DNA of 64,000 bases from Leucothrix arctica (GTDB taxonomy: Bacteria; Pseudomonadota; Gammaproteobacteria; Thiotrichales; Thiotrichaceae). The notes under the pieces were generated by a model. That model was not told the origin of the DNA, did no database searches, and worked only from the letters and a program-made list of their open reading frames with translations. Made by a program: the position numbers and the translations under genes. Positions 2,253-43,005 of the stretch are shown piece after piece. Location: contig NZ_QGKL01000016.1 of the NCBI RefSeq assembly GCF_003172895.1, positions 1-64,000 on the forward strand, given 5' to 3'. How positions within the stretch are numbered: position 1 is the stretch's first letter; the number at the start of each line of letters is the position of its first letter.

Positions 2253-3446
2253 TTATTGTTCTGGAAACAGCCCCGGCATCCACCGCCCCGCCAAACTAGC
2301 AGGAAAATTAAGCAACAACGGCGCACGAGTAGACTCAGAAACCAGCACACTTTTTTCCAGCAAAACAGAAGTCACGCGCCTAGCATGACGGTCGCTTGTG
2401 CCCAAAACACCTGCAACTTCCCCACGTAGCAGCTCCCCTCGATACAGCACAGATTCTAATACTAAATTAGACTTTAACGGTAAACGGTCAGCTTGTATTT
2501 CCTCCTCTGTCCACACTAGTATTCGATCACGAAGCCCTTTTGGGTTTACCAAGGTTTCCATGAAGTCGACTTGATCAATACACGTTTTCAAAAAGAATAT
2601 TGCGAAGTTTACTAAAGCCTTTTCACTCAGATTTCCTCGGCCATCTCGTTCACTTTGTCGTGGTAAATCACATTGCGCGAGTAAGCTTTTATATTCTGCT
2701 TCATTCCTTGCTAATCCACGTGCGACGGACCAAATACCGCCAGTATCTAGTGCATCTCGTAGCATGGCATAAGACATTAAGCGCGCTACTCTACCGTTAC
2801 CATCAAGGAAAGGGTGCATCCATAACAAGCGATGGTGTGCAGAGGCAGCAGACACTATTGCATCAACTCGACCAAGGTTTTTATAGGACTTTTCAAAACG
2901 CGCCATAAAACGAGGAAGCGCACCTGAGCTTATCGCAATGTGTTTTCCCACGATCACATCACGTTGGCGATATTCCCCCGCGATTAGTTGCTCTTGCTTG
3001 TCGCCATCAGGAGATGAGACCCAGAGTAACTCGTCTGGTAAACGCTCACAGAAACGACGGTGAGTTTCCAGTACGCCCTCAGCTGTGGCTGCTTTCTCTT
3101 TTAAACCATCGTTATCAATCCACTCTTGAACGGCAATGTGTGCTTTAGCTTCAAGCTGTAAATCGCGCTGTTTCGCATCAGAGCTATAGTCTTCGTTGAG
3201 CGCACGTTCTATATCAATTGGGTGAGTGTCATGGCCTTCTATGAGATTACTGTAGTAGCAGTTCATCGCACGAACTAAGTCTGACAAGGCTCTGACCACG
3301 CCACTAGGCAAACTATTCCGAAGTGCTGTTGATTTAGCGGTAAGCTCTAGCGCAAGGTCTGCGAGTTCTGAGCGGGCACTCGATGATTCTGAAACCAAAA
3401 GCGGCTCCATTATACTAATATGTTCGTTTCTATCTTCTGCTGCCAT
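2253..3446 (-). CDS. Fic family protein (adenylyltransferase-type), class II
   Basis: This 397-residue protein has an intact Fic core, HPFLDGNGRVARL, near residues 215-227, with the catalytic His and the phosphate-binding loop. An autoinhibitory helix of the form SxxxEG (SNLIEG, about residues 66-71) precedes the Fic domain, which makes it class II. Fic proteins of this kind transfer AMP from ATP to target proteins and are kept off by the helix. The C-terminal third resembles a winged-helix region (GVLGTSDRHARRVTSVLLEK). The start at 3446 overlaps one of the atgtccgc repeats, and no clear Shine-Dalgarno is present. An alternative start is Met13. Its target is unknown. It sits in a cluster of toxin-like genes. 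Confidence 0.85.
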   Translation of the reverse strand: MAAEDRNEHISIMEPLLVSESSSARSELADLALELTAKSTALRNSLPSGVVRALSDLVRAMNCYYSNLIEGHDTHPIDIERALNEDYSSDAKQRDLQLEAKAHIAVQEWIDNDGLKEKAATAEGVLETHRRFCERLPDELLWVSSPDGDKQEQLIAGEYRQRDVIVGKHIAISSGALPRFMARFEKSYKNLGRVDAIVSAASAHHRLLWMHPFLDGNGRVARLMSYAMLRDALDTGGIWSVARGLARNEAEYKSLLAQCDLPRQSERDGRGNLSEKALVNFAIFFLKTCIDQVDFMETLVNPKGLRDRILVWTEEEIQADRLPLKSNLVLESVLYRGELLRGEVAGVLGTSDRHARRVTSVLLEKSVLVSESTRAPLLLNFPASLAGRWMPGLFPEQ

Positions 3447-3992: not shown

Positions 3993-4742
3993 TCAGGCTT
4001 CAACCAACCTCAAACGCTGACTTAGCGCCTCAACAACCTGCGCAGCAACTAACTGATGAAAATCTGCTTTATCTTCCTCAACATTGCACTTTTCTAGCGC
4101 ATCGTAATAAGCAAGCCGCGCTTCATTATCACCATGAAAAATCGCTAACGGGAAGCCATGTTGCATCAAAACCAAGTTCATCACCAAGCGAGCCGTTCGC
4201 CCATTTCCATCAACAAATGGGTGGATCGTTACTAACCTTTCGTGCATCTCTGCCGCTAAAATGACGGGGTGTAATTGCTCTCGTTGCTCTTGATAAAACA
4301 GGAAGTAATCTTCCATGAGCTTTTCCACCTGCCACGGTTGCGGTGGAACATGACGACTACCACTGATGGTCACTGGAATATCACGGTAACGACCTGCATA
4401 TTGCTTATCAATACTACGTAAAATAAGGCCGTGTAAACTCAATAGAGCGAATTGATTAAAAGGCTCTTTTCCTTGTACCCAATCACGAACAAACTCCACT
4501 GCCTCATAATGATTGATCGCCTCTAAGTGCTCTACTAACGGCTTACCACCAATCGTTAAGCCCTTATGAATAACCAAGTCAGTCTCGCGCAATGTAAGCG
4601 TATTACCTTCTATACGGTTACTTTCATAGGTGTACTCGACGTTGATAGCTCGACGAATCGATTCATTATCCCACTCGCGGAAATGCTGTAGACGCGCAAG
4701 CTTGTCATCGGCTTGTTTTAACAGAGATTGAAGTGTAGACAT
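3993..4742 (-). CDS. Fic family protein, class II, short
   Basis: This is a second Fic protein of 249 residues, much shorter than the one at 2253-3446. It has the complete active-site loop HPFVDGNGRTARL (about residues 171-183) and the inhibitory helix SNRIEG (about residues 39-44), so it too should be a self-restrained AMP transferase. There is no C-terminal winged helix. A Shine-Dalgarno-like AAGG lies just upstream of the ATG at 4742. The two Fic proteins are not close paralogues. Both sit in the same island as hipBA, which suggests accumulation of toxin-like genes rather than an operon, since each has its own upstream gap. Confidence 0.88.
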   Translation of the reverse strand: MSTLQSLLKQADDKLARLQHFREWDNESIRRAINVEYTYESNRIEGNTLTLRETDLVIHKGLTIGGKPLVEHLEAINHYEAVEFVRDWVQGKEPFNQFALLSLHGLILRSIDKQYAGRYRDIPVTISGSRHVPPQPWQVEKLMEDYFLFYQEQREQLHPVILAAEMHERLVTIHPFVDGNGRTARLVMNLVLMQHGFPLAIFHGDNEARLAYYDALEKCNVEEDKADFHQLVAAQVVEALSQRLRLVEA

Positions 4743-4901: not shown

Positions 4902-6158
4902 TCAAGTAGCATCAGAGAAGGCAGGCTTCATTCTTTCCTGCTCCGCTCGACTAATTCCAATGGCTTCAGCTTTTTCACGCCAGTGACCAACACTTGTAGT
5001 CACTTCGTTAATAATTTCATTAGCTCGATTTTGGCTTATCCTAAAATAGCTAATCACTTCCAGCGCCAACTCAAAGTCCAAACGGTTATCTAACTCAGTA
5101 ATATTCAGGTGCAAACCGTATGAGGGAGTAACAGGGTTAAGGTCATAAGCTGGGGAAAGTCTCCAGCCTTGCTTATCAAGCATAAAACCATGATTTCTCA
5201 AGTGGTCATCAGTATTAGACACTGCAATATTAAATACTATGCGTCGCCACAGTTGCTCAAGGTCAGCGGCTGTTTGTGAGCCATGTTGTGTAAGAAATTC
5301 GGCTAGCTCTAGGTAACTCGCTTCATAGTCACCGTCGTAATAACGCAGCTGCGTCATGGCAGAGCTAAAGTGGAAACGCTTTGCATCCTGTCTATCGAAA
5401 CGCTTGGTAATAAACGTGTGATAAGGACTATTAAAGCGCTGAATTCTGGACTCGGCCATTTCAATGCCAGCATCCAACGCCAACTGATAAACAACGTACT
5501 CCCACGCGCCAATATCGTGGTCATCATAACGGCTTGGAAACTTGGCAATCCATAGCGATTGGTCATCATCAATTACACAGGCTTTAGGACGTGCGCCGCC
5601 CAATGACGAACCCGGGGAGATCAGCATAAATAACCATTTGAGATAATCAGGATTATCCGCCTGCTGATCATCTTCAACTTTCGACGCTGCGTACTCCAGC
5701 TATCGCAGTGAACTCATTGGCGGTGCTGCTAGCTTGTTATTGTTATCTAGAAACACACCATCTAACTCCTGCTTGAAACGAAGCCCGCCCATACGGTATT
5801 CATCATGCACGCCCAGCAAGTAGTCTGTCTCGGTTAGTAACTTAGCGCGTCGACCATCTATCCTCGCTAAAGCGGCTTCACGACGTTTCATGAGCAACCT
5901 ACCCCAGCGGTCAGGACATGAGTCTAAGAACACACGGAAATTACTTTCATCGCTAAACTGTCTTTCCTCATATAACTGAAGGTCAGGGTCAATAGGCAAA
6001 GCAAAGGGTGAACTCAACCACTCAGGCGCATAGCTAAAACTAAAAAGTTCTTTGTTGCGGATGACATTGGAGGTCAGCGTTCCGACAAGTTGCGGCTCTT
6101 CAGAGTCAGTCCCATCGGGTAGTGACCAGTCAGCGAATACATAGATAGTCTTTTCCAT
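4902..6158 (-). pseudogene. hipA: HipA-type Ser/Thr kinase toxin interrupted by an in-frame amber codon
   Basis: Two open segments in the same frame are separated only by a TAG at 5700-5702. The N-terminal 152 residues (HipA N1 domain, ending APPMSSLR) continue after the stop as LEYAASKVEDD. Family members usually read SLRELE here, so the stop most likely replaces a GAG codon by one G-to-T change. The downstream part has the ATP-binding SSLGGARPK loop, the catalytic NTDDHLRNHGF segment and the metal-binding AYDLNP. Read through, the product would be about 418 residues, normal for HipA. The family phosphorylates translation factors or tRNA synthetases and causes dormancy. It starts directly after the hipB stop codon, so the two were one operon. 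Confidence 0.85.
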
Positions 6159-6503
6159 TTATGTCGTACCCTTCCCTGACAGGAGCTTTGCATCTTGTAA
6201 CTTACGCCCCAAATCATCATCTAAAGCAACATCGGCAAGGTCTCCCGCTAGCCCTAGCACTGCTAGAACACTCAAGTAGTGACCGATCGAAACAGTTGGG
6301 TCACCATTCTCTATTTTGCGCAGGGTAACGCTGCTTATACCAGTACGCTGACTCGTTAGCTGTTGAGTTAACTTACGCCTCTTTCGCGCTAGTTTTATGT
6401 TTTCACCTAATACGCTCAATACTTGCTGCTGTTTAGGGAAAACAACTGCCTGACGGCGCTCGGTACTATTTTTTAAAATAGACACTATAGTTTGCTTTTT
6501 CAT
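6159..6503 (-). CDS. hipB: HipB-type XRE-family antitoxin/repressor
   Basis: This 114-residue DNA-binding protein has an XRE helix-turn-helix at about residues 32-85 (ENIKLARKRRKLTQQLTSQRTGISSVTLRKIENG). Its stop codon abuts the hipA ATG (TAAATG), the usual antitoxin-first arrangement. In the family the protein binds HipA and represses its own promoter. Since hipA is broken here, it may now act only as a repressor. An ACACTATA inverted repeat covers its start region. Confidence 0.85.
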   Translation of the reverse strand: MKKQTIVSILKNSTERRQAVVFPKQQQVLSVLGENIKLARKRRKLTQQLTSQRTGISSVTLRKIENGDPTVSIGHYLSVLAVLGLAGDLADVALDDDLGRKLQDAKLLSGKGTT

Positions 6504-6524
6504 TAATAATACAAAATATAGTGT
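6482..6524. promoter_or_regulatory. Candidate HipB operator
   Basis: ACACTATA at 6482-6489 and its inverse TATAGTGT at 6517-6524 flank the hipB start codon in an AT-rich stretch. The position and symmetry fit an autoregulatory operator. The assignment is inferred only from the repeat. Confidence 0.4.
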
Positions 6525-6877
6525 GCTTTTTGTAAGTTTAAGTCAAATTTAAGAAGTTGTTGATAAACAAATATCAGCAATACATAAACAACTTTCTAAA
6601 AAGGAGGTTTCTTCTTTTTTTATATTTTTTAAAAAATAAGGTATTTAATATCAAATACTTAATTAGTTTTAATCAAAATTCATGTCCGCTTTAATGTCCG
6701 GTTCTAATAACTCCTAACAACAGCCTCCATATCATAACAATTACATTAATAACAAGACATAAATAAGTTAATAGTAAGATTTTAACGCGTGTAATCCTTA
6801 ACTTTTAGCAGTAGCATACTTAAATAAATTTTTGTGCGAAATAACTACAAAGTTTCAAAAAAAGGAGTGCTATTAGA
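6525..6877. other. Non-coding gap, AT-rich, upstream of the methyltransferase array
   Basis: No gene is seen in these 353 bases. The gap contains a run of A and T around 6600-6670, a small hairpin (AGGTATTT / AAATACTT near 6639-6660) and the third atgtccgc repeat pair at 6682. The methyltransferase promoter should lie in the last 100 bases. An AAAAGGAG ribosome site precedes the first gene at 6878. Confidence 0.6.
6682..6701. repeat. Paired 8-bp direct repeat atgtccgc/g, 12-bp period (copy C)
   Basis: Copies begin at 6682 (atgtccgc) and 6694 (atgtccgg), with the same 12-base period and orientation as at 3445 and 3547. Copies B and C enclose about 3.1 kb with the IS30 remnant, the short fic and hipBA. 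Confidence 0.6.
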
Positions 6878-7651
6878 ATGACTGACATCAAAAACTGCGA
6901 TGCAGCCCAGCAACACTTCGTGGAGTCTTGGGATCAACAGACACGCGCCATCTGGCCTGTGACTTATCCCGAGTCACTATCGCATGAGTTAAAAAAGCTA
7001 AACGTAAGCACTATTCTCGACACCTGTGGTGGTACGGGTTTTCCATCGATTGAGCTAAAGCAAATGGGCTGGGACATCACCTACTCTGACGGCTGGGACA
7101 CGATGTTAGGTTTCTTCAGCAAGCGCCTTGATGAAACAAAGTTGGATATCCCAATGTATCTGACACGCTGGGAAAACTTATCTAGCAACATTCCCAACAC
7201 CTACGACGCACTGCTATGCGCAGGTAACTCGTTTGTCGGCATCAATACTTATGATCACAACACGCCGATCAACGCTAATGCGGCTAGAACCAATATGGTA
7301 TTGGCGGTGAAAGAGTTTCATCAGATGTTAAATACAGGCGGTGTTTTGTATATAGACCTTTTCAAGGAGAAATACGCATTCCCTGAGCAGCCCTATACCC
7401 GCGTCATCACAACCGATACTCACCGCATTTTTACCAACGTCAGTTATGACCCTGTTCGAGATACGCTCGCTAGCTTTACTACTAGAAGCTCGCTGTTAGA
7501 TGGTTCGGAGACGGACACGATTCTTAAAGTAACACCGATGCTTGCCGAAGACTTGATTGAAGTTTTATTGGAAGCAGGCTTTGCTCGTGTTGAACGCTCT
7601 ACGGTCGATGATGCTGAGTACGTGGATAGCTTTTTTGCGTTTAAAGACTAA
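6878..7651 (+). CDS. SAM-dependent methyltransferase, GNMT-like, array copy 1
   Basis: This is the first of five adjacent paralogues of exactly 257 residues. The SAM-binding motif I is ILDTCGGTG (residues 46-54), the acidic ribose-binding residue follows in TYSDG (Asp71), and motif IV reads YDALLCAGNSF (about 106-116). The last matches the YDAVICLGNSF signature of glycine and glycine/sarcosine N-methyltransferases. Where those enzymes have a DHRNYD substrate loop (with the carboxylate-binding Arg), this protein has IDLFKEKYAFP, so glycine is unlikely to be the substrate. The protein is cytosolic, without signal peptide. A strong AAGGAG site lies upstream. The 36-base gap to copy 2 suggests one operon. 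The substrate is unknown. Confidence 0.82.
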   Translation: MTDIKNCDAAQQHFVESWDQQTRAIWPVTYPESLSHELKKLNVSTILDTCGGTGFPSIELKQMGWDITYSDGWDTMLGFFSKRLDETKLDIPMYLTRWENLSSNIPNTYDALLCAGNSFVGINTYDHNTPINANAARTNMVLAVKEFHQMLNTGGVLYIDLFKEKYAFPEQPYTRVITTDTHRIFTNVSYDPVRDTLASFTTRSSLLDGSETDTILKVTPMLAEDLIEVLLEAGFARVERSTVDDAEYVDSFFAFKD

Positions 7652-7687
7652 CTACTTCGCGTCAAATTAACGATAAGGATATAAGCA

Positions 7688-8461
7688 ATGACAGACATCA
7701 AAACCTCTAAAGAAGCAGTCAAAAACTTTGCAGAGGCATGGGATCAGGAAGTACGCAGCCTATGGCCTGAAAGCTACCCAAATGAGCTTTCCAATATGCT
7801 CAAAGATTATGGTGTAAAGACTATTTTAGATTGCGCAGGTGGGACTGGTTACCCATCAATTGAGCTCAAACAGATGGGGTGGGACATCACTTATTCTGAT
7901 GGCTCCAGCGTTATGCTAGGCATTTTTACTGAAAAGCTTGAAGCAACACAGTTAGGCATACCAAAGTACCACTCTCGGTGGGAGGAGTTATCACAAAAGG
8001 TACCCGATACCTATGATGCACTAATGTGCATAGGAAACTCATTCATTGGTATCAACTCTTATGAAAGTGTATTTGCCATTTCTGATGAGACGGTTAAAGC
8101 AAACATGCTTAGTGCTGTGAGTGAGTTTTATAAGAAGCTAAATAATGGCGGCATACTCTATATAGACCTTATGAACGCGAATAGCTCGGCTCCAGATCAG
8201 CCCTATTCACAGGTATTAACAACCGAAACCGACCATATATTTACAACCATCAGTTACGACCCTGTCACGAATATACGAACGAATTTCAAATCTAAAACAT
8301 CTTTAATTGATGGGTCTGTAACTGATGCAGTCACCAAACTTGTACCACTATTCACAGAAGAGTTAATTAATCTGCTCCTTGAAGCAGGTTTCTCTCGCGT
8401 TGAACGCTCAACCGTCGATGATGCTGACTACGTGGATAGCTTTTTTGCGTTTAAAGACTGA
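7688..8461 (+). CDS. SAM-dependent methyltransferase, GNMT-like, array copy 2
   Basis: This 257-residue paralogue has motif I ILDCAGGTG, the acidic residue in TYSDGSS and motif IV YDALMCIGNSF. The position of the GNMT substrate loop reads IDLMNANSSAP. The N-terminus (WDQEVRSLWPESYP) and the C-terminus (VDSFFAFKD) are the best-conserved ends of the family. The last 29 coding bases are identical to those of copies 1 and 4 although the bodies differ, which hints at recombination between copies. A Shine-Dalgarno (AAGGA) precedes the ATG. It lies 34 bases before the start site of copy 3. Confidence 0.82.
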   Translation: MTDIKTSKEAVKNFAEAWDQEVRSLWPESYPNELSNMLKDYGVKTILDCAGGTGYPSIELKQMGWDITYSDGSSVMLGIFTEKLEATQLGIPKYHSRWEELSQKVPDTYDALMCIGNSFIGINSYESVFAISDETVKANMLSAVSEFYKKLNNGGILYIDLMNANSSAPDQPYSQVLTTETDHIFTTISYDPVTNIRTNFKSKTSLIDGSVTDAVTKLVPLFTEELINLLLEAGFSRVERSTVDDADYVDSFFAFKD

Positions 8462-8495
8462 CCTCTCACCTATATAAACAATAAGGAAATTAGCT

Positions 8496-9269
8496 ATAAC
8501 CGATATTAAAAACGCCAAGGACGGTGTAAGAAATTTTGCAGAAGCATGGGATCAAGAAGTACGTGAAGCATGGCCAAAAAGCTACCCAAGCGAAATTTCA
8601 GACGTACTCAAAAAGTACAATGTGAAGACTATTTTGGATTGTGCAGGTGGTACAGGTTATCCATCGATTGAGCTGAAACAATTGGGTTGGGACATAACTT
8701 ATTCTGACGGTTCTAGCGCTATGCTAGATATCTTCACTGAAAAACTTGAAGCTTCGAAATTAGACATGCCAAAGTATTTCTCACGCTGGGAAGACCTGTC
8801 ACAGAAAGTACCTAATACCTATGATGCGCTTATGTGTGCTGGAAACTCATTCATTGGCATCAACTCTTATGAAAGTGATTTTGCCATCGCTGATGAAGTG
8901 GTTAAAACGAACATGCTCAGCGCTGTTAGTGAGTTTTACAACAAGCTAAATACGGGTGGCGTACTTTATATCGACCTTTGCAAAGCGGACAGAGCAGCGC
9001 CAGAGAAACCTTACTCCGAAAGTATCACCGACGATAACGCCCATATATTCAGAACGATTAGTTATGACTCTGTAACTAATATTCGAACTAACCTCACGAC
9101 AACAACATTATTAAGTGACGGTTCAGCCACAGACACCATCACAAAAGTTGTGCCGCTGTTTGCAGAGGAGTTAATTAACTTACTCCTTGAAGTAGGCTTC
9201 TCTCGCGTTGAACGCTCTACTGTAGCTGACGCTGATTACGTCGATAGCTTTTTTGCGTTTAAAGACTAA
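8496..9269 (+). CDS. SAM-dependent methyltransferase, GNMT-like, array copy 3 (ATA in place of ATG start)
   Basis: Aligned to its neighbours, this copy begins at 8496 with ATA-ACC-GAT-ATT-AAA (where copies 1 and 2 have ATG-ACN-GAC-ATC-AAA). AAGGA sits at a normal distance upstream, and the open frame then gives the standard 257 codons. The first in-frame ATG is codon 43 (8622), just before motif I. Starting there would delete the conserved N-terminal WDQEVR helix region. Motif I (ILDCAGGTG), TYSDGSS and YDALMCAGNSF are intact. Either a rare ATA start is used at reduced level, or only a shortened protein is made, or the copy has been silenced by one G-to-A change. The rest of the frame shows no decay. 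Confidence 0.7.
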   Translation: MTDIKNAKDGVRNFAEAWDQEVREAWPKSYPSEISDVLKKYNVKTILDCAGGTGYPSIELKQLGWDITYSDGSSAMLDIFTEKLEASKLDMPKYFSRWEDLSQKVPNTYDALMCAGNSFIGINSYESDFAIADEVVKTNMLSAVSEFYNKLNTGGVLYIDLCKADRAAPEKPYSESITDDNAHIFRTISYDSVTNIRTNLTTTTLLSDGSATDTITKVVPLFAEELINLLLEVGFSRVERSTVADADYVDSFFAFKD

Positions 9270-9297
9270 CTCCAATTCCCCACAAGAGAGAAATACT

Positions 9298-10071
9298 ATG
9301 TCAGATATCAAGAGCGTTAAAAGGTCCGATGAAAACAAGGCTAAGTCTTGGGATCAAGAAGTCCGAAGCTTATGGCCTGAAAGCTACCCGGAGTCACTTT
9401 CAAACGCATTTAAAAAGTTTGGTGTTTCTAGCATCTTAGATGCTGCTGGAGGAACGGGTTACCCTTCGCTAATACTCAAAGACATGGGCTGGGATATTTC
9501 ATACTCTGATGCTTCATTGGTCATGATGGACTTCTTCAAGCAACAAGCTGATGTTCAGCACCTAACGATTCCAATGTATCAATCAAGATGGGAAACGTTA
9601 TCTCAAAACATTCCCCACACCTACGACGCACTCATGTGTGCAGGCAACTCAATCACCAATATCAATTCATATGATAATGAGTACCCCCTGATAGCTGATT
9701 CAATAAAAGCTCAAACACAGCTCGCAGCTAATGAGTTTTATAAAATGCTCAATACTGGCGGTGTGTTGTATATCGACCTCTATAATAAAGAGTGCTCAAG
9801 GCCTGATAAGCCCTACAGTGTCACAACGACCAATGACACACACCGAATATTTCGAACCATCAGCTATGATCCAGTTCGTAACATTCGTACTAACTTAACA
9901 ACTACCTCATCGCTCACCGATAACTCTGAAGTGGACGACATATCTAAGACTATCCCTATTCTTCCAGAAGATTTAATTGAGTTTCTGTTAGCTGCTGGCT
10001 TCTCACGTGTTGAGCGAGCGACGACTGATGATGCTGACTTCGTGGATAGCTTTTTTGCGTTTAAAGACTGA
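9298..10071 (+). CDS. SAM-dependent methyltransferase, GNMT-like, array copy 4
   Basis: The start was chosen at 9298 (ATG-TCA-GAT-ATC-AAG) by alignment with the other copies and because a GAGAG site lies just upstream. The frame also opens 45 bases earlier at 9253, overlapping copy 3. From 9298 it is again 257 residues. Motif I is ILDAAGGTG, followed by SYSDAS and YDALMCAGNSI; the substrate-loop position reads IDLYNKECSRP. It is one of the more diverged copies internally yet shares the 29-base 3' end with copies 1 and 2. Confidence 0.82.
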   Translation: MSDIKSVKRSDENKAKSWDQEVRSLWPESYPESLSNAFKKFGVSSILDAAGGTGYPSLILKDMGWDISYSDASLVMMDFFKQQADVQHLTIPMYQSRWETLSQNIPHTYDALMCAGNSITNINSYDNEYPLIADSIKAQTQLAANEFYKMLNTGGVLYIDLYNKECSRPDKPYSVTTTNDTHRIFRTISYDPVRNIRTNLTTTSSLTDNSEVDDISKTIPILPEDLIEFLLAAGFSRVERATTDDADFVDSFFAFKD

Positions 10072-10104
10072 CCTCAACCTAACGACTAAGAGAGAACTTT
10101 AACT

Positions 10105-10878
10105 ATGTCAGATGTCAAAACCTCTAAAGACTCTATGAAGAGCTTTGCTGAAACATGGGACCAACAAGTACGTCACCTGTGGCCAGAAGCGTACCCAGAG
10201 TCACTGTCCAACGAACTGAAGAAACTCAACGTTAGCAGCATCTTGGACTGCGCAGGTGGTACGGGCTACCCTGCCATTGAGCTTAAACAAATGGGATGGG
10301 ATATCAGCTACTCAGATGGTTCTGAACTACTTAACACGTTCTTCAAAAATCGTATTGAAACACTCCACCTAGATATCCCAACCTACCAATCGCGCTGGGA
10401 AAATCTAACTCAGAACATACCAAAAACCTACGATGCGCTAATGTGTTCAGGTAACTCATTTATTTCCATCAACTCTTATGATAATGACGCCTCTTTCACA
10501 AAAACTGTCGTAAAACAAAACATGCAGCAGGCAGTGAATGAGTTTTATAAAATGCTAAACGCCAATGGTGTTTTATATATCGACATGTTCAACGAAAGTT
10601 ATGCCTTTCCTAAGCAGCCTTTTAGCATTAGTTCAGAGAGTGACACGCACCGTATATTCACCACTGTTAACTACGACTCGGTTCGGAACGCCCGTACCAC
10701 TCTTACTACAACCTCCTCACTCCACGATGACTCAGAAGAACACATGATTACTAAATTAACGCCCATTCATACAGAGGAGTTGATTGAGTTTCTTAAAGAG
10801 GCAGGTTTTTCAAGGGTAGAGTTCGCCGCAACTGACGATGCTGATTATGTTGACAGCTTCTTCGCATTCAAAGACTAA
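10105..10878 (+). CDS. SAM-dependent methyltransferase, GNMT-like, array copy 5
   Basis: This is the last paralogue, 257 residues, with motif I ILDCAGGTG, SYSDGSE and YDALMCSGNSF; the substrate-loop position reads IDMFNESYAFP. Its protein C-terminus (VDSFFAFKD) is the same as in the others, but the codons differ at many synonymous sites. It therefore escaped the sequence homogenisation seen in copies 1, 2 and 4. It ends 3 bases before the convergent dehydrogenase gene, with no obvious T-rich terminator between them. Confidence 0.82.
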   Translation: MSDVKTSKDSMKSFAETWDQQVRHLWPEAYPESLSNELKKLNVSSILDCAGGTGYPAIELKQMGWDISYSDGSELLNTFFKNRIETLHLDIPTYQSRWENLTQNIPKTYDALMCSGNSFISINSYDNDASFTKTVVKQNMQQAVNEFYKMLNANGVLYIDMFNESYAFPKQPFSISSESDTHRIFTTVNYDSVRNARTTLTTTSSLHDDSEEHMITKLTPIHTEELIEFLKEAGFSRVEFAATDDADYVDSFFAFKD

Positions 10879-10881
10879 CCA

Positions 10882-21309: not shown

Positions 21310-23487
21310 ATGCCCATGAATTCACAAATACCTTTAACACGTGATGTAGTCCTAATCGGTGGCGGGCATACTCATGCACTAGTCTTGCGGAAGTGGGGCA
21401 TGAACCCATTACCCGGTGCACGACTCACCGTGATAAACCCCGGGCCAACAGCACCTTACAGTGGCATGTTACCGGGCTTCATTGCCGGACATTACACACG
21501 TGATGAGCTGGATATTGATCTGGTTCGATTGGCACGGTTTGCTGGCGCTCGGGTGATTATCGGTAAAGCGACGGAGATTGATCGTAACGCTAAGTTGATT
21601 CATGTCACAGGACGTGAGCCGATTGCTTACGATATTGCGTCGATTGATGTGGGCATTAATTCGGATATGCCGGAGATTCCTGGGTTTATGCAACACGGTG
21701 TTTCAGTGAAGCCTTTGGATATCCTGAGTCAACGCTGGCCGCAGTATTTAGATCAAGTAGAAGGCACAGCTAACCTTGCGGTGATTGGTGGCGGTGTTGC
21801 AGGCGTCGAAGTGACGCTGGCGATGATGCATGCGCTAAACAGCCGAAATATAACGGCCAACATGAGCCTGGTTGATGCCACTGAGGTTCTTAGTGGTGTT
21901 GCGCCTCAAGCTAAAGCAAAACTGCTGCAACGATTAGCGGATTATAACGTTCGTTTACGGCCCCTAAGTAGAGTCGCAGAAGTGACTGCTGACGGCATAA
22001 CACTTGTCAGTGGCGAGCCAATTGTCTCTGACTTTACCTTAGGTGCTGCGGGCGCGCGTGCTTATGACTGGATGTCAGATCTCGGTCTTGACGTGCATGA
22101 TGGCTATATAGTCGTTGATGAGATGCTGCGCTCTAGTGACCCAACTATTTTTGCAGCTGGCGACTGTATGCATTTGCCAAGTAACCCTAGAGCTAAAGCC
22201 GGCGTATTTGCGGTTCGTGCTGCGCCTGTGTTGTGGCATAACCTGCGCTCGGTGCTAAGTGGCAACACGCTACATACATTCCGGCCACAGGGTGATTACC
22301 TGAAATTGATTTCGTTAGGCGATAAATCTGCTCTAGCGGAGAAGTTTGGTATTGCGTTGTCGGGCCCTGCGCTATGGCGTTGGAAAAATCAAATTGATCA
22401 GAAGTTCATGGATCAGTTCTACGAATACCCAACGATGAAGGTTGAGAAGCTACCTTCTGAAATGGCTGCGGGCGTGAGTGACCTACTAGCCGATGGAAAG
22501 CCAATGTGTGGCGGCTGTGGCGCTAAAGTTGGGCGTGATGTATTGGCTCGCGTGCTGAAAAAACTCCCTACTATAGACCGTAATGACGTTCTGTCTAAGC
22601 CCGGTGACGACGCGGCAATTATGCGTTATGGCGATAAATATCAAGTCATTACTAACGATCATTTACGGGCGTTTACCCAAGATATTTCGCTTCAATCACG
22701 CATCGCTGCGATACATGCAATGGGCGATATTTGGTCGATGGGCGCGCAGGCTCAAACCGTGTTATCTACGATTATCCTGCCGCGAATGTCTTCGGATATG
22801 CAGGAGCGTTATTTAACCGAAATAATGACCGCTGCATCGGAGGTGTTTGGTGCTCAAGGTGCTGAAATTGTGGGTGGCCATACTTCGCTTGGGTCAGAGT
22901 TGACGATTGGTTTTACCATCACGGGTATCTGCGAACATGAGCCTATTCAACTGTCAGGTGGGCAAGCGGGTGATGTGCTGATTCTGACCAAGCCTATTGG
23001 CACGGGCACGCTATTGGCTGCTGAGATGACGATGAAAGCGCGTGGTGCAGATGCTATCGCAGCGTTAAATGGAATGCAGCAAGACCAAGCGGCAGCGGCT
23101 GCAATTTTGCATGATGCACATGCAATGACGGATGTGACTGGTTTTGGTTTGGCGGGTCACTTGATGGGAATTTGTGAAGCATCGTGTTGTGCGGCTAAAT
23201 TGGATCTTCAGGAAATTCCATTGCTAGCCGGTGCTGAAGCATTGGCTGAGCAAGGGGTGCGTTCTACCTTGTATCCGGATAACTTTGAAGTATCAACACT
23301 GATGTATTTGACGGAGCCAGACAGTGCTCGGACTGCGTTGTTATTTGACCCTCAAACTGCGGGTGGCTTACTGGCTGCAGTGAGTGCTGAAAGTGCGGAT
23401 GAGAAGTTGGCGCAGTTATTAGACGCTGGTTATGCCGCAAAGAAAATTGGTGTCCTGCTTAAGGGTGACGGTTTTATTTCGGCATAG
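21310..23487 (+). CDS. selD: Flavoprotein-SelD fusion: selenide, water dikinase with N-terminal NADH dehydrogenase-like domain
   Basis: This is a two-domain protein of 725 residues. Residues 1 to about 370 are an FAD/NAD(P)-dependent oxidoreductase (VVLIGGGHTHALV at the start, IGGGVAGVEV near 158, FAAGDCMHL near 283). From about 395 it is SelD, which makes selenophosphate from selenide and ATP. The catalytic segment GGCGAKVGRDVL keeps the essential Cys and Lys; the second Cys of the E. coli CGC motif is Ala. KPGDDAA and GGHTSLGSE are also present. This fusion is known in many proteobacteria; the flavin domain may supply reduced selenium. No selA, selB or mnmH is in the window. It follows the MurA-like gene by 22 bases. 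Confidence 0.92.
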   Translation: MPMNSQIPLTRDVVLIGGGHTHALVLRKWGMNPLPGARLTVINPGPTAPYSGMLPGFIAGHYTRDELDIDLVRLARFAGARVIIGKATEIDRNAKLIHVTGREPIAYDIASIDVGINSDMPEIPGFMQHGVSVKPLDILSQRWPQYLDQVEGTANLAVIGGGVAGVEVTLAMMHALNSRNITANMSLVDATEVLSGVAPQAKAKLLQRLADYNVRLRPLSRVAEVTADGITLVSGEPIVSDFTLGAAGARAYDWMSDLGLDVHDGYIVVDEMLRSSDPTIFAAGDCMHLPSNPRAKAGVFAVRAAPVLWHNLRSVLSGNTLHTFRPQGDYLKLISLGDKSALAEKFGIALSGPALWRWKNQIDQKFMDQFYEYPTMKVEKLPSEMAAGVSDLLADGKPMCGGCGAKVGRDVLARVLKKLPTIDRNDVLSKPGDDAAIMRYGDKYQVITNDHLRAFTQDISLQSRIAAIHAMGDIWSMGAQAQTVLSTIILPRMSSDMQERYLTEIMTAASEVFGAQGAEIVGGHTSLGSELTIGFTITGICEHEPIQLSGGQAGDVLILTKPIGTGTLLAAEMTMKARGADAIAALNGMQQDQAAAAAILHDAHAMTDVTGFGLAGHLMGICEASCCAAKLDLQEIPLLAGAEALAEQGVRSTLYPDNFEVSTLMYLTEPDSARTALLFDPQTAGGLLAAVSAESADEKLAQLLDAGYAAKKIGVLLKGDGFISA

Positions 23488-38805: not shown

Positions 38806-40794
38806 CTACTTAAAAAGTCTAGAACAAACAAGCCAGAGTAAATATGGGAGGAAGAGCAAATAAACACCCCATATGAACACGATGAATGCAGCCGTTGAAG
38901 CTGACGCGATTGAGTGGTGCTCATTATGCACAACCATTTTCGAATCATTCTCATAACGATAGAGAATACCGTCGATGGGCGCTGTGACAGGGTATGCACT
39001 CAAGTATCCAATAAATTGCTCATAGTTTTCTGGCGAGGTAGTCCGAAGCTCTCCCCAATGGCCCCTATACTTCGTTTGCCACTCCTTAAAAAATGACAAG
39101 TTATACCCTGTAACTACCGTACCCTGTTGATTATTCAAACGATAAACAATCTCCAAGTCCTTCTCAATAAGCTGTTGTGTAACTTCCAATGACTCAGCAA
39201 GCAACTTAGCGAGTGCCGAAGCAAGCGTCTTGCCACGAGTATTTTTAGTTTCAATAAGCTGCTGAACAACTGCTATAGACGGAAACTTTTCAACCGCAGG
39301 ACTAGCTAATACGCTTAGAAGGTATGACGTTTTATCCTCAGATAGTTTACTGATTGGTTTATTGATGATCGCAACGCTACCCAACAACTCATAACTTTTT
39401 TCAATCTTCCTTGCGATAACTAACGCTTCTTTAGCCTGTGCAAAGTCAGGGTACTGTTGCAAAGCCGCTTCTTTATTTCGAATAAAGAAAAGCTCTGTTC
39501 TTTCAGGACACTTACCAATGAGGAATGAACAGTCACTCGTCCGTTTCATCGAAGGAATAGCCAACCCGTGCGTCGCGACTGCCTGATAATTTGCCACTTT
39601 ATTTGGATCATATAAGTCTTTATCAGAAGCCAGCTCTGTAGAACCGGACATAGCACTATAGCTATTAAAGACCTCCAAAAAGGCAACCGTTATAGGCGTT
39701 GTCGTTATGTTGATTGTTAGTAAAATAGCGGTAATCAGCGGTAACCAAATACCTTTAGCGACAGGCACACTATCTAAATTAATATCGAGAGCTTCACCCT
39801 TAATAGAAATAGGCTGATACTTAGAAATAGTATAATCACTTTCTAAGTAGTCATAACTATGCAGCATCGCCTCCATCTTTACCTCGCCAAACTCCTTACC
39901 CTGTTTTTTTAAACACTTTAACCATTTAGGTGGCAACTCAAGAGAATGCTTAACCGTACCAAAGTGCTTCTCCTTGATATCTAACTCTTTTAACCACTCA
40001 GGCGACATCTCAATAGTCTGCTCAAAAAGCCCGTAGTCATAACGTTCTTCGTCGAATCTTAAGTTACCTGATAATTGAACAATATCGCGTGACTGTATGT
40101 ACTTAACTCGCCTTTTGTAGGCTAACCACATTAAGAAACACAGCGGCACTAGAGGTATCGAATAAATAAGTAGTACACCCTCAATTTCAGCAAGAATAGT
40201 ATCTGATATAAATTTAGACGATATAACCAAAACAAACAGCCAAGTAGGGAGCGTTATCCATGGGGAGAGTAAAAATGCATTCTTTTCAGCTTTTGTTGCT
40301 GGACGCCTATTAAAATTCTCTTCCAACCTTTGCTGGTATAAGTGCTTTAGCCCTGTGACTTCATGCATTTCATGTAACACTAATTGCCCATCAAACCTCA
40401 GCTCTACACGCTTACCACCTAGCTCCTGCCCGTCAACAAACTCCCCCTCTAGCTCTGGAGGAATAGTCACCACAAACAGTTTACTCCCCAGATGTATATC
40501 AAACGTTAAGCGAGGAAAACCACCAAGCGGTTTATGCCTTTTGATAGCAATATAGTCAGCATGAATAGTATAAATTGCACCCCAACGTGCCTTGGTTTTT
40601 GGCGATGCCGCTAAGCCAAAATTATAGAAATGCTGCATCACTGCTAGGTCTTCTTGACCCATCTCACGAGTCTCAGCCCCGTGCTGTTTATTGAACGCAC
40701 GTCTAAACTTTAGCCGGGCAAAATAGGGGTATATAAGCACCACTAAGGGCACCAAAATAATAAGAACAACGACGAAGGTGAAATACTCTTTCAT
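38806..40794 (-). CDS. IgaA-like multi-domain membrane protein, second of a coupled pair
   Basis: The start at 40794 was chosen because its ATG overlaps the TGA of the upstream gene (ATGA) and the paralogue begins in the same way; this gives 662 residues. Layout: an N-terminal membrane segment (YFTFVVVLIILVPLVVLIY), a cytoplasmic part (to about 180), two more segments, a second cytoplasmic part, a segment near 365 (LITAILLTINITTTPI), a long periplasmic part and a final segment. The order and size match IgaA (YrfF), the inner membrane brake on Rcs signalling. The family assignment rests mainly on topology. It is a diverged duplicate of the gene before it. Confidence 0.65.
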   Translation of the reverse strand: MKEYFTFVVVLIILVPLVVLIYPYFARLKFRRAFNKQHGAETREMGQEDLAVMQHFYNFGLAASPKTKARWGAIYTIHADYIAIKRHKPLGGFPRLTFDIHLGSKLFVVTIPPELEGEFVDGQELGGKRVELRFDGQLVLHEMHEVTGLKHLYQQRLEENFNRRPATKAEKNAFLLSPWITLPTWLFVLVISSKFISDTILAEIEGVLLIYSIPLVPLCFLMWLAYKRRVKYIQSRDIVQLSGNLRFDEERYDYGLFEQTIEMSPEWLKELDIKEKHFGTVKHSLELPPKWLKCLKKQGKEFGEVKMEAMLHSYDYLESDYTISKYQPISIKGEALDINLDSVPVAKGIWLPLITAILLTINITTTPITVAFLEVFNSYSAMSGSTELASDKDLYDPNKVANYQAVATHGLAIPSMKRTSDCSFLIGKCPERTELFFIRNKEAALQQYPDFAQAKEALVIARKIEKSYELLGSVAIINKPISKLSEDKTSYLLSVLASPAVEKFPSIAVVQQLIETKNTRGKTLASALAKLLAESLEVTQQLIEKDLEIVYRLNNQQGTVVTGYNLSFFKEWQTKYRGHWGELRTTSPENYEQFIGYLSAYPVTAPIDGILYRYENDSKMVVHNEHHSIASASTAAFIVFIWGVYLLFLPYLLWLVCSRLFK

Positions 40795-42698
40795 CTTAAA
40801 CGAAACCTCGAAAACGCTAGCCAAAGTAGATATAGGGTGTACAACAAAGAACTCAGCCATACCAAGCTTAAAACTATCGCGGTAATAAATGACGATACCG
40901 AATAATGTTCATTGGTCACTGTTGTTTTGTAGTTAGTGTTTTTGTAACGGTTGAGAACACCGTCAATTGGCGCTGTCACTGGGTATATACTCAAATCATC
41001 AATCAGCTTCTGATATTCATTCGGAGAGATATAAAGGTCATGTCTCCTCATCCCATACGAGGTGAGCCAACCATCAAAGAACGTTAGGTTATAGCCTTTC
41101 GCGACTACGCCTTCTTGATGGCTTAACTTATAGAGAGTTAGCATGTCTTTATCTAGGTGCTGCTGAACAACTTGCAATGCCTCATCTCTTAGCTGCTCTA
41201 GACCTGCAGCAAGCGCTTGGCCTCTGGCGCGCTCAGTCCTAATCAACTGTCTAATGCCCTTTGCGGAAGGAAGCTTTTCAACTAAAGGGCTGTCTAAAAC
41301 TTCAACCAAATAAGCAAAGTCACTTTTAGATAATCGATCGATTGGATGGTCTAAAACAGACACCAAGCCCAGCGATTGGTAGCTTGTATCAATCATTTTG
41401 GCAGGCAACAATGCTGCACTCATTTGTGCAAAATCAGGATACTGTTCCAGCGTAGCCGCTTTATCTTTCACAAAGAAAAGCGCATCTAGTTCAGGACAGT
41501 GATCAGAGTCCATATAACGACAATGATTTTCCGCGTCGATGTAAGGAATAGCTAGCCCATGAGTAGAAATAGCCTGCCCATCACCGACCTTTTTAGCGTC
41601 ATACAACCCGCTACTTGAGGAAAGCTCTGAAGAACTAAATAAACTCTTTGAGCTATTCATAACTTCTGAAAACAACGTCGGAACAGGTGTAGCAAAGACG
41701 TTAACACTAACGAATGCACCAATAAAAAGTGTGAGAAACCAACTTCTAGCCACCGGTAAATTATTTATAGTGAGATCTAAGTCTGTGCCCTTAAGAGATA
41801 TAGGCTGGTACTGGTGAATTGGATGACTATCTTCTGACAAGCCCAACGTATGCAGCATTGCTTCCACCTTAACGTGACCAAGCTTCTTGCCCTTAGCTTC
41901 TAAACGCTTTAACCAGTTGCTCGATAACTTAAGCGGCTGCCCATTTACTTGGTATTGCCCCTTACCTCGGTGATAACTTAACTCACCTGATAGCTGAATA
42001 ATCTCACGAGACTTTATATAGCCCTTTCTAAGAAAGTACAATATGGGTATTGAGAGTGGAACATACACAAATAAAAACCCGTCTAAACCTAGCTCATTAA
42101 CGGCAGGCATCACCCAAGGTACGACACAAAACATAAGCACCGAATTTGACACCGTACTCCAGCGCGATAGCAGGAAAGAGCTTTGTTCTACTGATGTTGC
42201 AGGCCGTCTGTCGTGACTCCCAATACGCCTTTGTTGATACAAGGTTCTTAAGCCTGATACACCCTCAATTTCGTGTAACACGACCCCTCTTCTGTCGAAC
42301 ATAACCTCGATAGTTTTATCGGAAAATTGCCGACCCTCAGAAAATTTATGTTCTATTTCTCTAGGTATGTAAACAACAACGCCTCGATTATCTAACGTAA
42401 TTGAGAACGTAGAATACGGAATTCCTCTGTGTGGGCGATGTCTCTTAATCGATATTGAATAGACATTAATCGTATAAATTTTCCCCCAACGAGACTTCAT
42501 CTTTGGAGTCGCGACCAAGCCATTATTATAATAGTGCTGCATGACCGCTAAGTCTTCTTCGGTCATCTCTCTAATATGCGTTTCAGGCAGATTATTCAAC
42601 GCCTCTTTAGTCCTCTTCTGCTCTTTATGAGAGTGAAGCACTATAAATATTAGTAAGGGCACACCAATAATAAAAAAGATGGCGAAAAGAAACTCCAT
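40791..42698 (-). CDS. IgaA-like multi-domain membrane protein, first of a coupled pair
   Basis: This 635-residue protein starts at 42698, where AAGG lies upstream; the frame opens 16 codons earlier without a ribosome site. It is a clear paralogue of the protein encoded after it: EEDLAVMQHYYNNGL, LYQQRRIG, RRPATSVEQ, STHGLAIPY and SIYPVTAPIDGVLNRY recur in both. The predicted segments (N-terminal, two near 190-235, one near 340, one at the C-terminus) leave two cytoplasmic domains and one large periplasmic domain, the plan of IgaA. The four-base ATGA overlap means both are made together and may form a complex. No rcs genes are in the window. Confidence 0.65.
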   Translation of the reverse strand: MEFLFAIFFIIGVPLLIFIVLHSHKEQKRTKEALNNLPETHIREMTEEDLAVMQHYYNNGLVATPKMKSRWGKIYTINVYSISIKRHRPHRGIPYSTFSITLDNRGVVVYIPREIEHKFSEGRQFSDKTIEVMFDRRGVVLHEIEGVSGLRTLYQQRRIGSHDRRPATSVEQSSFLLSRWSTVSNSVLMFCVVPWVMPAVNELGLDGFLFVYVPLSIPILYFLRKGYIKSREIIQLSGELSYHRGKGQYQVNGQPLKLSSNWLKRLEAKGKKLGHVKVEAMLHTLGLSEDSHPIHQYQPISLKGTDLDLTINNLPVARSWFLTLFIGAFVSVNVFATPVPTLFSEVMNSSKSLFSSSELSSSSGLYDAKKVGDGQAISTHGLAIPYIDAENHCRYMDSDHCPELDALFFVKDKAATLEQYPDFAQMSAALLPAKMIDTSYQSLGLVSVLDHPIDRLSKSDFAYLVEVLDSPLVEKLPSAKGIRQLIRTERARGQALAAGLEQLRDEALQVVQQHLDKDMLTLYKLSHQEGVVAKGYNLTFFDGWLTSYGMRRHDLYISPNEYQKLIDDLSIYPVTAPIDGVLNRYKNTNYKTTVTNEHYSVSSFITAIVLSLVWLSSLLYTLYLLWLAFSRFRLR

Positions 42699-43005
42699 AT
42701 CGGAAACCTTATGATAACTGCACGTTAAGTGGTTATGAAAAATCATCTGTGCAGTCCCAGATAACTCAAACCTCGGCTAGATAGGTATAGCCTTGTGCTT
42801 TGGTGTGCACTCTCTTTCTTCTATTAAGCGCTGTCTTTTAGCATTCCGTGTTTTTTTTATCCACTAGGAAGCTGTATTTAACGACTAACGTATATCAAGC
42901 ATCGATAAGTTGATCACCGCGATGGCTGCGAATTAACGAACGCAAGTATTTGCTATACAATAATATTAACTGGTAGCAACACTTGCGTTTTCTAAGGGGA
43001 AAATC

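Follow-up and report, generated by a model that had tools for sequence, protein, structure and literature searches.

In a 64,000-nucleotide (nt) stretch of DNA of the marine filamentous bacterium Leucothrix arctica (contig NZ_QGKL01000016.1, positions 1 to 64,000; hereafter the window), five adjacent genes at 6878–10878 constitute a five-gene expansion of an uncharacterised subfamily resembling glycine N-methyltransferase (GNMT), in a kind of layout that is already known. Sequence and modelling place them among the class I S-adenosylmethionine (SAM)-dependent methyltransferases, with a predicted fold of the type seen in GNMT, glycine/sarcosine methyltransferase (GSMT) and TylM1. We favour, at about an even chance, the reading that they are neofunctionalised methyltransferases of small molecules (probably amines), with separate specificities or a stepwise action. 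The copies were numbered 1–5 in order along the window:

6878–7651, + strand: copy 1, 257 amino acids (aa), ATG start, AAAAAAGGAG upstream
7688–8461, + strand: copy 2, 257 aa, ATG start; copy used for the structure model
8496–9269, + strand: copy 3, 257 codons counted from ATA
9298–10071, + strand: copy 4, 257 aa from ATG 9298
10105–10878, + strand: copy 5, 257 aa, ATG start

All five coding sequences measure 774 nt including the stop codon and none has an internal stop; for copy 4, an alternative TTG start 45 nt upstream of ATG 9298 gives an open reading frame (ORF) of 272 aa. The intergenic gaps are 36, 34, 28 and 33 nt from copy 1 to copy 5, with no gene in between, and the copy-to-copy spacing is 810, 808, 802 and 807 nt. 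Five homologues that are collinear and in register in this way cannot be due to chance. An earlier note on this DNA had described five adjacent same-strand genes of 257 codons with gaps of 28–36 nt, and this description was confirmed, all frames being open. The proteins align end to end without gaps. Their identity over the ten pairs is 56–76% (76% for copies 2 and 3, 63% for copies 4 and 5, 56–59% for the remaining eight), i.e. 24–44% of residues differ between copies; nucleotide identity is 60–76%.

Motif I (ILDxxGGTG) is present in all copies, as the earlier note had it; motif IV, which it gave as GNSF throughout, is GNSF in four copies and GNSI in copy 4. In an alignment of 15 proteins including one true GSMT (row L012), D48, G52, G54, D71 and N117 are invariant (15/15). 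The sole Pfam match, Methyltransf_25, was marginal: copies 2 and 3 (the latter taken from GTG 8622) scored above the cut-off, copies 1, 4 and 5 below. GSMT and GNMT ranked first in a sequence search of the PDB. An AlphaFold2 model of copy 2 (pLDDT 88.1, pTM 0.86), built from ten sequences, was used for a fold search, which returned GSMT (Z 25.4), CalS10 (25.0), TylM1 (24.6) and GNMT (24.0). The GNMT-like fold proposed in the earlier note was thus supported by both searches. The Z scores of GSMT, CalS10 and TylM1 count as tied under the rule of the fold-search tool, so the substrate cannot be read from the fold. Neither the PDB chains nor the NCBIfam models that were searched yielded a close characterised relative. 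The likeness to GSMT (NF051855; 5hil, 5gwx) and GNMT extends over nearly the full length of the fold (3.0 Å over 232 residues, 25% identity), and includes the SAM motif and the Asn of GNS (Asn134 in GSMT). The amino-sugar N-methyltransferases TylM1, DesVI, CalS10 and KedS8 share the fold (Z 23.0–25.0), but at 15–17% identity, and no deoxysugar gene is present among the ten ORFs scanned in the flanks of the array. Since N-methyltransferases are the nearest characterised relatives by sequence, amines are the probable acceptors.

In GSMT, according to the available part of PMC5146677, Arg167 and Tyr206 hold the carboxylate of the substrate and Asn134 its nitrogen, His138 and Met218 contact the substrate, and Tyr26 and Tyr185 line the transfer channel. 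The position of Arg167 (the carboxylate anchor, in DQRNYD) is occupied in copies 1–5 by F, M, C, Y and F, that of His138 by G, G, G, N and S, and that of the catalytic Tyr26, which lies eight residues N-terminal to the W in the WD pair, by A, A, G, S and S; GSMT row L012 carries Tyr there. The Asn134 equivalent, which contacts the acceptor nitrogen, is the invariant N117. The equivalents of Tyr185, Tyr206 and Met218 were left out (poorly aligned stretch). Against the GSMT model NF051855 (cut-off 350 bits), copies 1–5 scored 57.1, 79.1, 70, 58.9 and 81.5 bits; the whole L. arctica genome gave seven matches, none above the cut-off. As a search control, the GSMT gene in another genome (G025) reached 494 bits. 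GSMT identity was rejected on both counts, the missing Arg167, Tyr26 and His138 equivalents and scores of 57–82 bits against 350. A betaine set, i.e. glycine/sarcosine methyltransferases for osmolyte synthesis, would suit the fact that GSMTs are the closest solved relatives by sequence, but the array is unlikely to be one because these three residues are missing, and with scores so far below those of a true GSMT we consider it extremely unlikely. The loss of Arg alone would weigh less. Sarcosine/dimethylglycine methyltransferases (SDMTs) have Met at the GSMT Arg position (available part of PMC3176816), and therefore Arg loss by itself leaves such acceptors possible. The same source gives Asp142 and His146 for the acceptor site of MpSDMT, with Pro-Met at the GSMT Gln-Arg position. 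Going by position rather than by an aligned SDMT sequence, the residues of the array are N117 and, at 121, G/G/G/N/S, with Met at the GSMT Arg position only in copy 2.

A protein tree was built by maximum likelihood (LG+G4). It sets apart from all other sequences the five copies and G4a, the lone array-type gene of another Leucothrix genome, G004 (support 99 in the Newick tree, 88 in the re-rooted listing). Support is 99 for copies 2 and 3 and 100 for copy 5 and G4a; the placements of copies 1 and 4 are weaker (88 and 65). Copy 5 is 76.3% identical to G4a and at most 62.6% to any other copy. Copy 5 and G4a are orthologues and, since the two pair in the tree and by identity, the duplications are older than their split; G004 retained or received one copy only. 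The locus has moved or been transferred, because the neighbours of G4a differ, by eye, from those of the array. G4a itself (L025:8564-9337) lies in a region with toxin-antitoxin- and transposase-like ORFs (by eye).

Residue 115, before motif IV, distinguishes this clade. Outside the array clade it is Arg (R115 of CRGNS) in all eight family members aligned; none of the six members within the clade has Arg (A, I, A, A and S in copies 1–5, S in G4a). A Woesearchaeota protein reads IRGNS where the family reads CRGNS, GSMT row L012 has Leu at this position, and three archaeal hits, all more distant, split into one with Arg, one with Met and one without the searched motif pattern. Array position 115 corresponds to Leu132 of GSMT, whose backbone holds the amino group of SAM (available part of PMC5146677). 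A loss of Arg115 on the branch leading to the array clade, earlier than the duplications, would be a simple mark of neofunctionalisation, an argument from sequence only.

Codon likelihood was used for selection analysis because dS was unusable for most pairs: NG86 values were undefined in seven of the ten and 1.49–3.0 in the other three (1.49 for copies 2 and 3), and YN00 gave no estimate for nine. Under the GY codon model, omega is 0.092 for the five copies and 0.131 with the G004 gene added (six sequences). The copies are under purifying selection, with omega of about 0.1. Branch omegas were estimated on the assumed tree ((c2,c3),c1,(c4,(c5,G4a))), in which c1–c5 are copies 1–5, with the start codon excluded. 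The branches of copies 1, 2, 3 and 5 do not differ from the background; that of copy 3 (0.114, 2ΔlnL 0.17) is not relaxed. The value for copy 4 (0.027, 2ΔlnL 4.2) was discarded for its unrealistic branch length (18.9).

The 3′ ends of the copies are more alike in places, as seen for the following repeat:

7607–7652, + strand: 46 nt at the 3′ end of copy 1, recurring in copies 2–5

Its identity is 91–96% in copies 2–4 (8417–8462, 9225–9270, 10027–10072) and 80% in copy 5 (10834–10879). Over the last 14 codons, comparable silent sites are identical among copies 1, 2 and 4 (13/13, 12/12, 13/13), partially identical in copy 3 (9–10 of 12–13) and identical at 5 of 13–14 in copy 5. Fisher tests of this silent identity gave P = 1.5e-4 (copies 1 and 2), 4.8e-4 (1 and 4), 1.7e-5 (2 and 4), 0.0062 (1 and 3), 0.012 (3 and 4), 0.15 (2 and 3) and 0.57–1 (the four pairs with copy 5). 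A trailing-run test gave P = 0.0002 (copies 1, 2 and 4) and 0.0004 (copies 1 and 4), both this test and the 14-codon stretch having been chosen after seeing the data. In a run-length permutation test per pair, the best P value was 0.022, uncorrected (copies 1 and 2). Gene conversion at the 3′ ends of copies 1–4 is likely but not firmly so, the alternative being constraint on the nucleotide sequence. Partial concerted evolution of this kind, like the tandem copies themselves, would fit an amplification for more of one enzyme, an option listed in the earlier note. This dosage option did not hold up, because the copies differ at 24–44% of residues; they have been kept different, with mostly saturated dS, and the contribution of copy 3 would be small. 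We regard dosage as very unlikely.

Copy 3 is peculiar in its start. No ATG, GTG or TTG occurs from the upstream in-frame stop (8475) until GTG 8622. The ATA at 8496 occupies the position of the ATG of the other copies, and a Shine-Dalgarno-like AAGGA is retained 8 nt upstream of it. Read from GTG 8622, the protein has 215 aa and is without the N-terminal helices of the structure model. AUA is a poor initiation codon in Escherichia coli. Copy 3 may initiate naturally at AUA, or it may have been silenced recently. A purine-rich, ribosome-binding-site-like stretch precedes all five copies (by eye). Upstream of copy 1 lies a single leader:

6504–6877, + strand: intergenic leader of 374 nt, expected location of the promoter

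A consensus promoter scan found no promoter-like site on the + strand within this leader, and the counts from the promoter and terminator scans were not above those of shuffled sequences (9 vs. 10.7 and 3 vs. 4.3, respectively). We infer co-transcription of copies 1–5. Co-oriented, tightly spaced genes of equal length could also each encode one subunit of a hetero-oligomer, or have been subfunctionalised in their regulation, the weakly made copy 3 being a minor subunit. GNMT is a tetramer, and the C-terminal end VDSFFAFKD is invariant in the five copies. But the SAM motifs are kept in all five, no copy resembling a dead subunit, and the array-type gene of G004 stands alone; this arrangement is therefore judged unlikely.

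In the reading that we favour, the array would be an operon-like set of active SAM-dependent methyltransferases that arose when a paralogue already without the Arg before motif IV was duplicated locally in tandem, long ago. Each copy would bind SAM through the common core (ILDxxGGTG, GNS), and its own lid would close over a small acceptor; an amine other than glycine or sarcosine is the most likely one. The copies would each have a specificity of their own or would methylate related acceptors step by step. Different jobs best explain five enzymes that are constrained, diverged, equal in length and similarly spaced; catalysis, the acceptor and differences in specificity from copy to copy are what we infer from them. 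A combinatorial tailoring by one operon, in which each paralogue methylates a different position or homologue of one small molecule, is a tentative possibility.

Several observations count against neofunctionalised methyltransferases. Copy 3, without a normal start codon, is possibly poorly made. No acceptor, product or partner gene was pinned down for the array. The omega values are rough because dS is saturated or undefined except for copies 2 and 3. The branch of G4a, one of six tested, has a raised omega (0.678, 2ΔlnL 14.4), and therefore the function may be dispensable or changing in G004. Exchange between copies is probable because the 3′ ends of copies 1–4 look homogenised. Finally, with lid residues picked by hand (1–30, 119–142 and 161–223 of copy 2), lid-to-core divergence of paralogues (1.51–2.18, ten pairs) overlaps that of orthologues (1.56–2.45, four pairs). 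A faster change of the lid in paralogues than in orthologues was thus not seen.

Relatives were searched in three samples, of 57 genomes (relatives), 63 genomes (order) and 369 genomes (class), and by scans for short peptide patterns, which may omit the window's own genome or very near ones. In the first sample, four genomes matched at E 0.001, including that of L. arctica; the match in G025 is the true GSMT. At E 1e-20, three genomes of the order matched, L. arctica included and all of one genus, and in the class L. arctica and four others, the latter reading CLGNSFTHL and DQRNY and being GSMT-like. Scanning genome contigs with patterns from the five copies alone returned no relative in 137 stretches; with a broader alignment, five loci were found in 32 stretches, in Leucothrix pacifica (contig NZ_QGKM01000047.1, 39,607 bases) and in metagenome-assembled genomes (MAGs) of Campylobacteraceae, Diapherotrites, Berkelbacteria and Woesearchaeota. 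Each of these five genomes has one match at E 1e-15. In the class of the Campylobacteraceae MAG (298 genomes), only that MAG matched at E 1e-30. In the phylum of the Woesearchaeota MAG (371 genomes), four matched with one copy each, the MAG itself and three weaker ones (E 2e-35 to 4e-44). The L. arctica genome (4.75 Mb, 44 contigs) contains two more dispersed copies (contig C37) and a C-terminal remnant (contig C22); G004 has two dispersed copies and G003 one, and no family copy was found in the other four genomes of the genus, three of which are <70% complete. The narrow family is patchily distributed. No second array was found in the genomes searched, the others carrying one or two dispersed copies; the database comparison suggested by the earlier note therefore yielded relatives but, in these samples only, no further tandem array. 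Pattern scans of viral contigs gave 91 matches and no relative, a search of phage records with copy 1 no relative, and a plasmid search with copy 2 two records at about 28% identity.

Some relatives have neighbours or domains of their own. The Diapherotrites member (L032:246-2464) shares 4 nt with the end of a B12-binding radical SAM gene, which comes closest to a partner gene among the family members seen. The woesearchaeal protein (L034:7032-8732) has 566 aa, the methyltransferase of this family being its C-terminal domain; its long N-terminal part has no Pfam match at E 0.001. GNAT genes neighbour the relatives in L026, L027 and L031, but GNAT was rejected as a consistent partner, and the ten scanned ORFs that flank the array include none. 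The C22 remnant (L024:6338-6481; G000:C22:109334-109480) has a PhoX-like ORF (by eye) about 3.4 kb downstream; a PhoX gene likewise lies about 2.5 kb downstream of the array.

The ten flanking ORFs include no obvious biosynthetic partner, in agreement with the earlier note. To the left of the array are:

121–432: transposase-OrfA-like ORF at the contig end, named by eye
668–2194: IetS-type subtilase fragment (PADLOC, 545.6 bits, profile matched from position 346 on)
2253–3446 and 3993–4742, − strand: two genes with a Fic domain, each matching SoFic in PADLOC
4902–6503, − strand: hipB-like helix-turn-helix gene and split hipA (ORFs of 152 aa, N-terminal, and 241 aa, C-terminal)

The IetS-like gene is probably a truncated defence gene, and hipB with the split hipA apparently a broken toxin-antitoxin operon. 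On the right are a 3-hydroxyisobutyrate-dehydrogenase-like gene, a GntR/aminotransferase (MocR-type) regulator and the PhoX-like gene. The dehydrogenase has 54–55% matches in five of the six other genomes of the genus, and a second copy in L. arctica; for the MocR-type gene, these six (three <70% complete) gave no match at E 1e-100. The array lies in a variable region beside defence-type genes. Two other loci of the window were noted by eye: a 725-aa ORF (21310–23487) resembling a FAD-dependent oxidoreductase fused to selenophosphate synthase, and a further tandem duplicate (38806–42746, − strand) of two neighbouring ORFs of 684 and 651 aa that share 70 nt, apparently membrane-protein paralogues.

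Such surroundings would suit a relict, neutral tandem duplication in a decaying region, with copies drifting and one losing its start codon, and the unmatched MocR-type gene, the C22 remnant and the ATA of copy 3 agree with it. The earlier note associated a neutral array with single-copy relatives of known substrate, decay and dN/dS near 1. Relatives are indeed single or dispersed, but no known substrate was found, omega (0.09–0.13) is far from 1, copy 3 is not relaxed and the five 257-codon frames are open despite their divergence. Because old neutral copies would be decayed, this origin is decidedly unlikely. The left flank, with its IetS-type fragment, Fic genes, hipB and split hipA, might instead indicate an anti-phage or self-modification island acting by small-molecule or nucleotide methylation rather than in metabolism. 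Four of the five copies were scanned with PADLOC and weakly matched the methyltransferase part of mad2 (E 3e-4 to 2e-9), but this match is limited to the generic SAM domain, the best fold matches are small-molecule enzymes, relatives stand in other gene contexts (ORF lists), and phage records and viral contigs gave no match. We give the island little credence.

The favoured set of neofunctionalised enzymes has parallels in known systems. The products of mmaA1–mmaA4 belong to another methyltransferase family and modify mycolic acids. In mycobacteria, mmaA1-mmaA2-mmaA3-mmaA4 are tandem, diverged SAM methyltransferases with distinct reactions (available parts of PMC10272862 and PMC3089613), a precedent for the layout, of which the earlier note knew no described case. 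They resemble the array in the adjacency and divergence of their paralogues, but are four and have a known substrate class. In gsmt-sdmt betaine clusters, neighbouring N-methyltransferases act stepwise on one acceptor; such clusters comprise two genes, preceded in Methanohalophilus by sahh and sams (available part of PMC3176816), whereas the array has five paralogues and neither sahh nor sams among its ten flanking ORFs. Among the papers listed in a literature search on bacterial tandem methyltransferase arrays, none showed a comparable array; as evidence that there is none, this is weak. The array, together with its relatives in sister species, offers a natural series of old, constrained paralogues and thereby a route to how this fold changes its acceptor.

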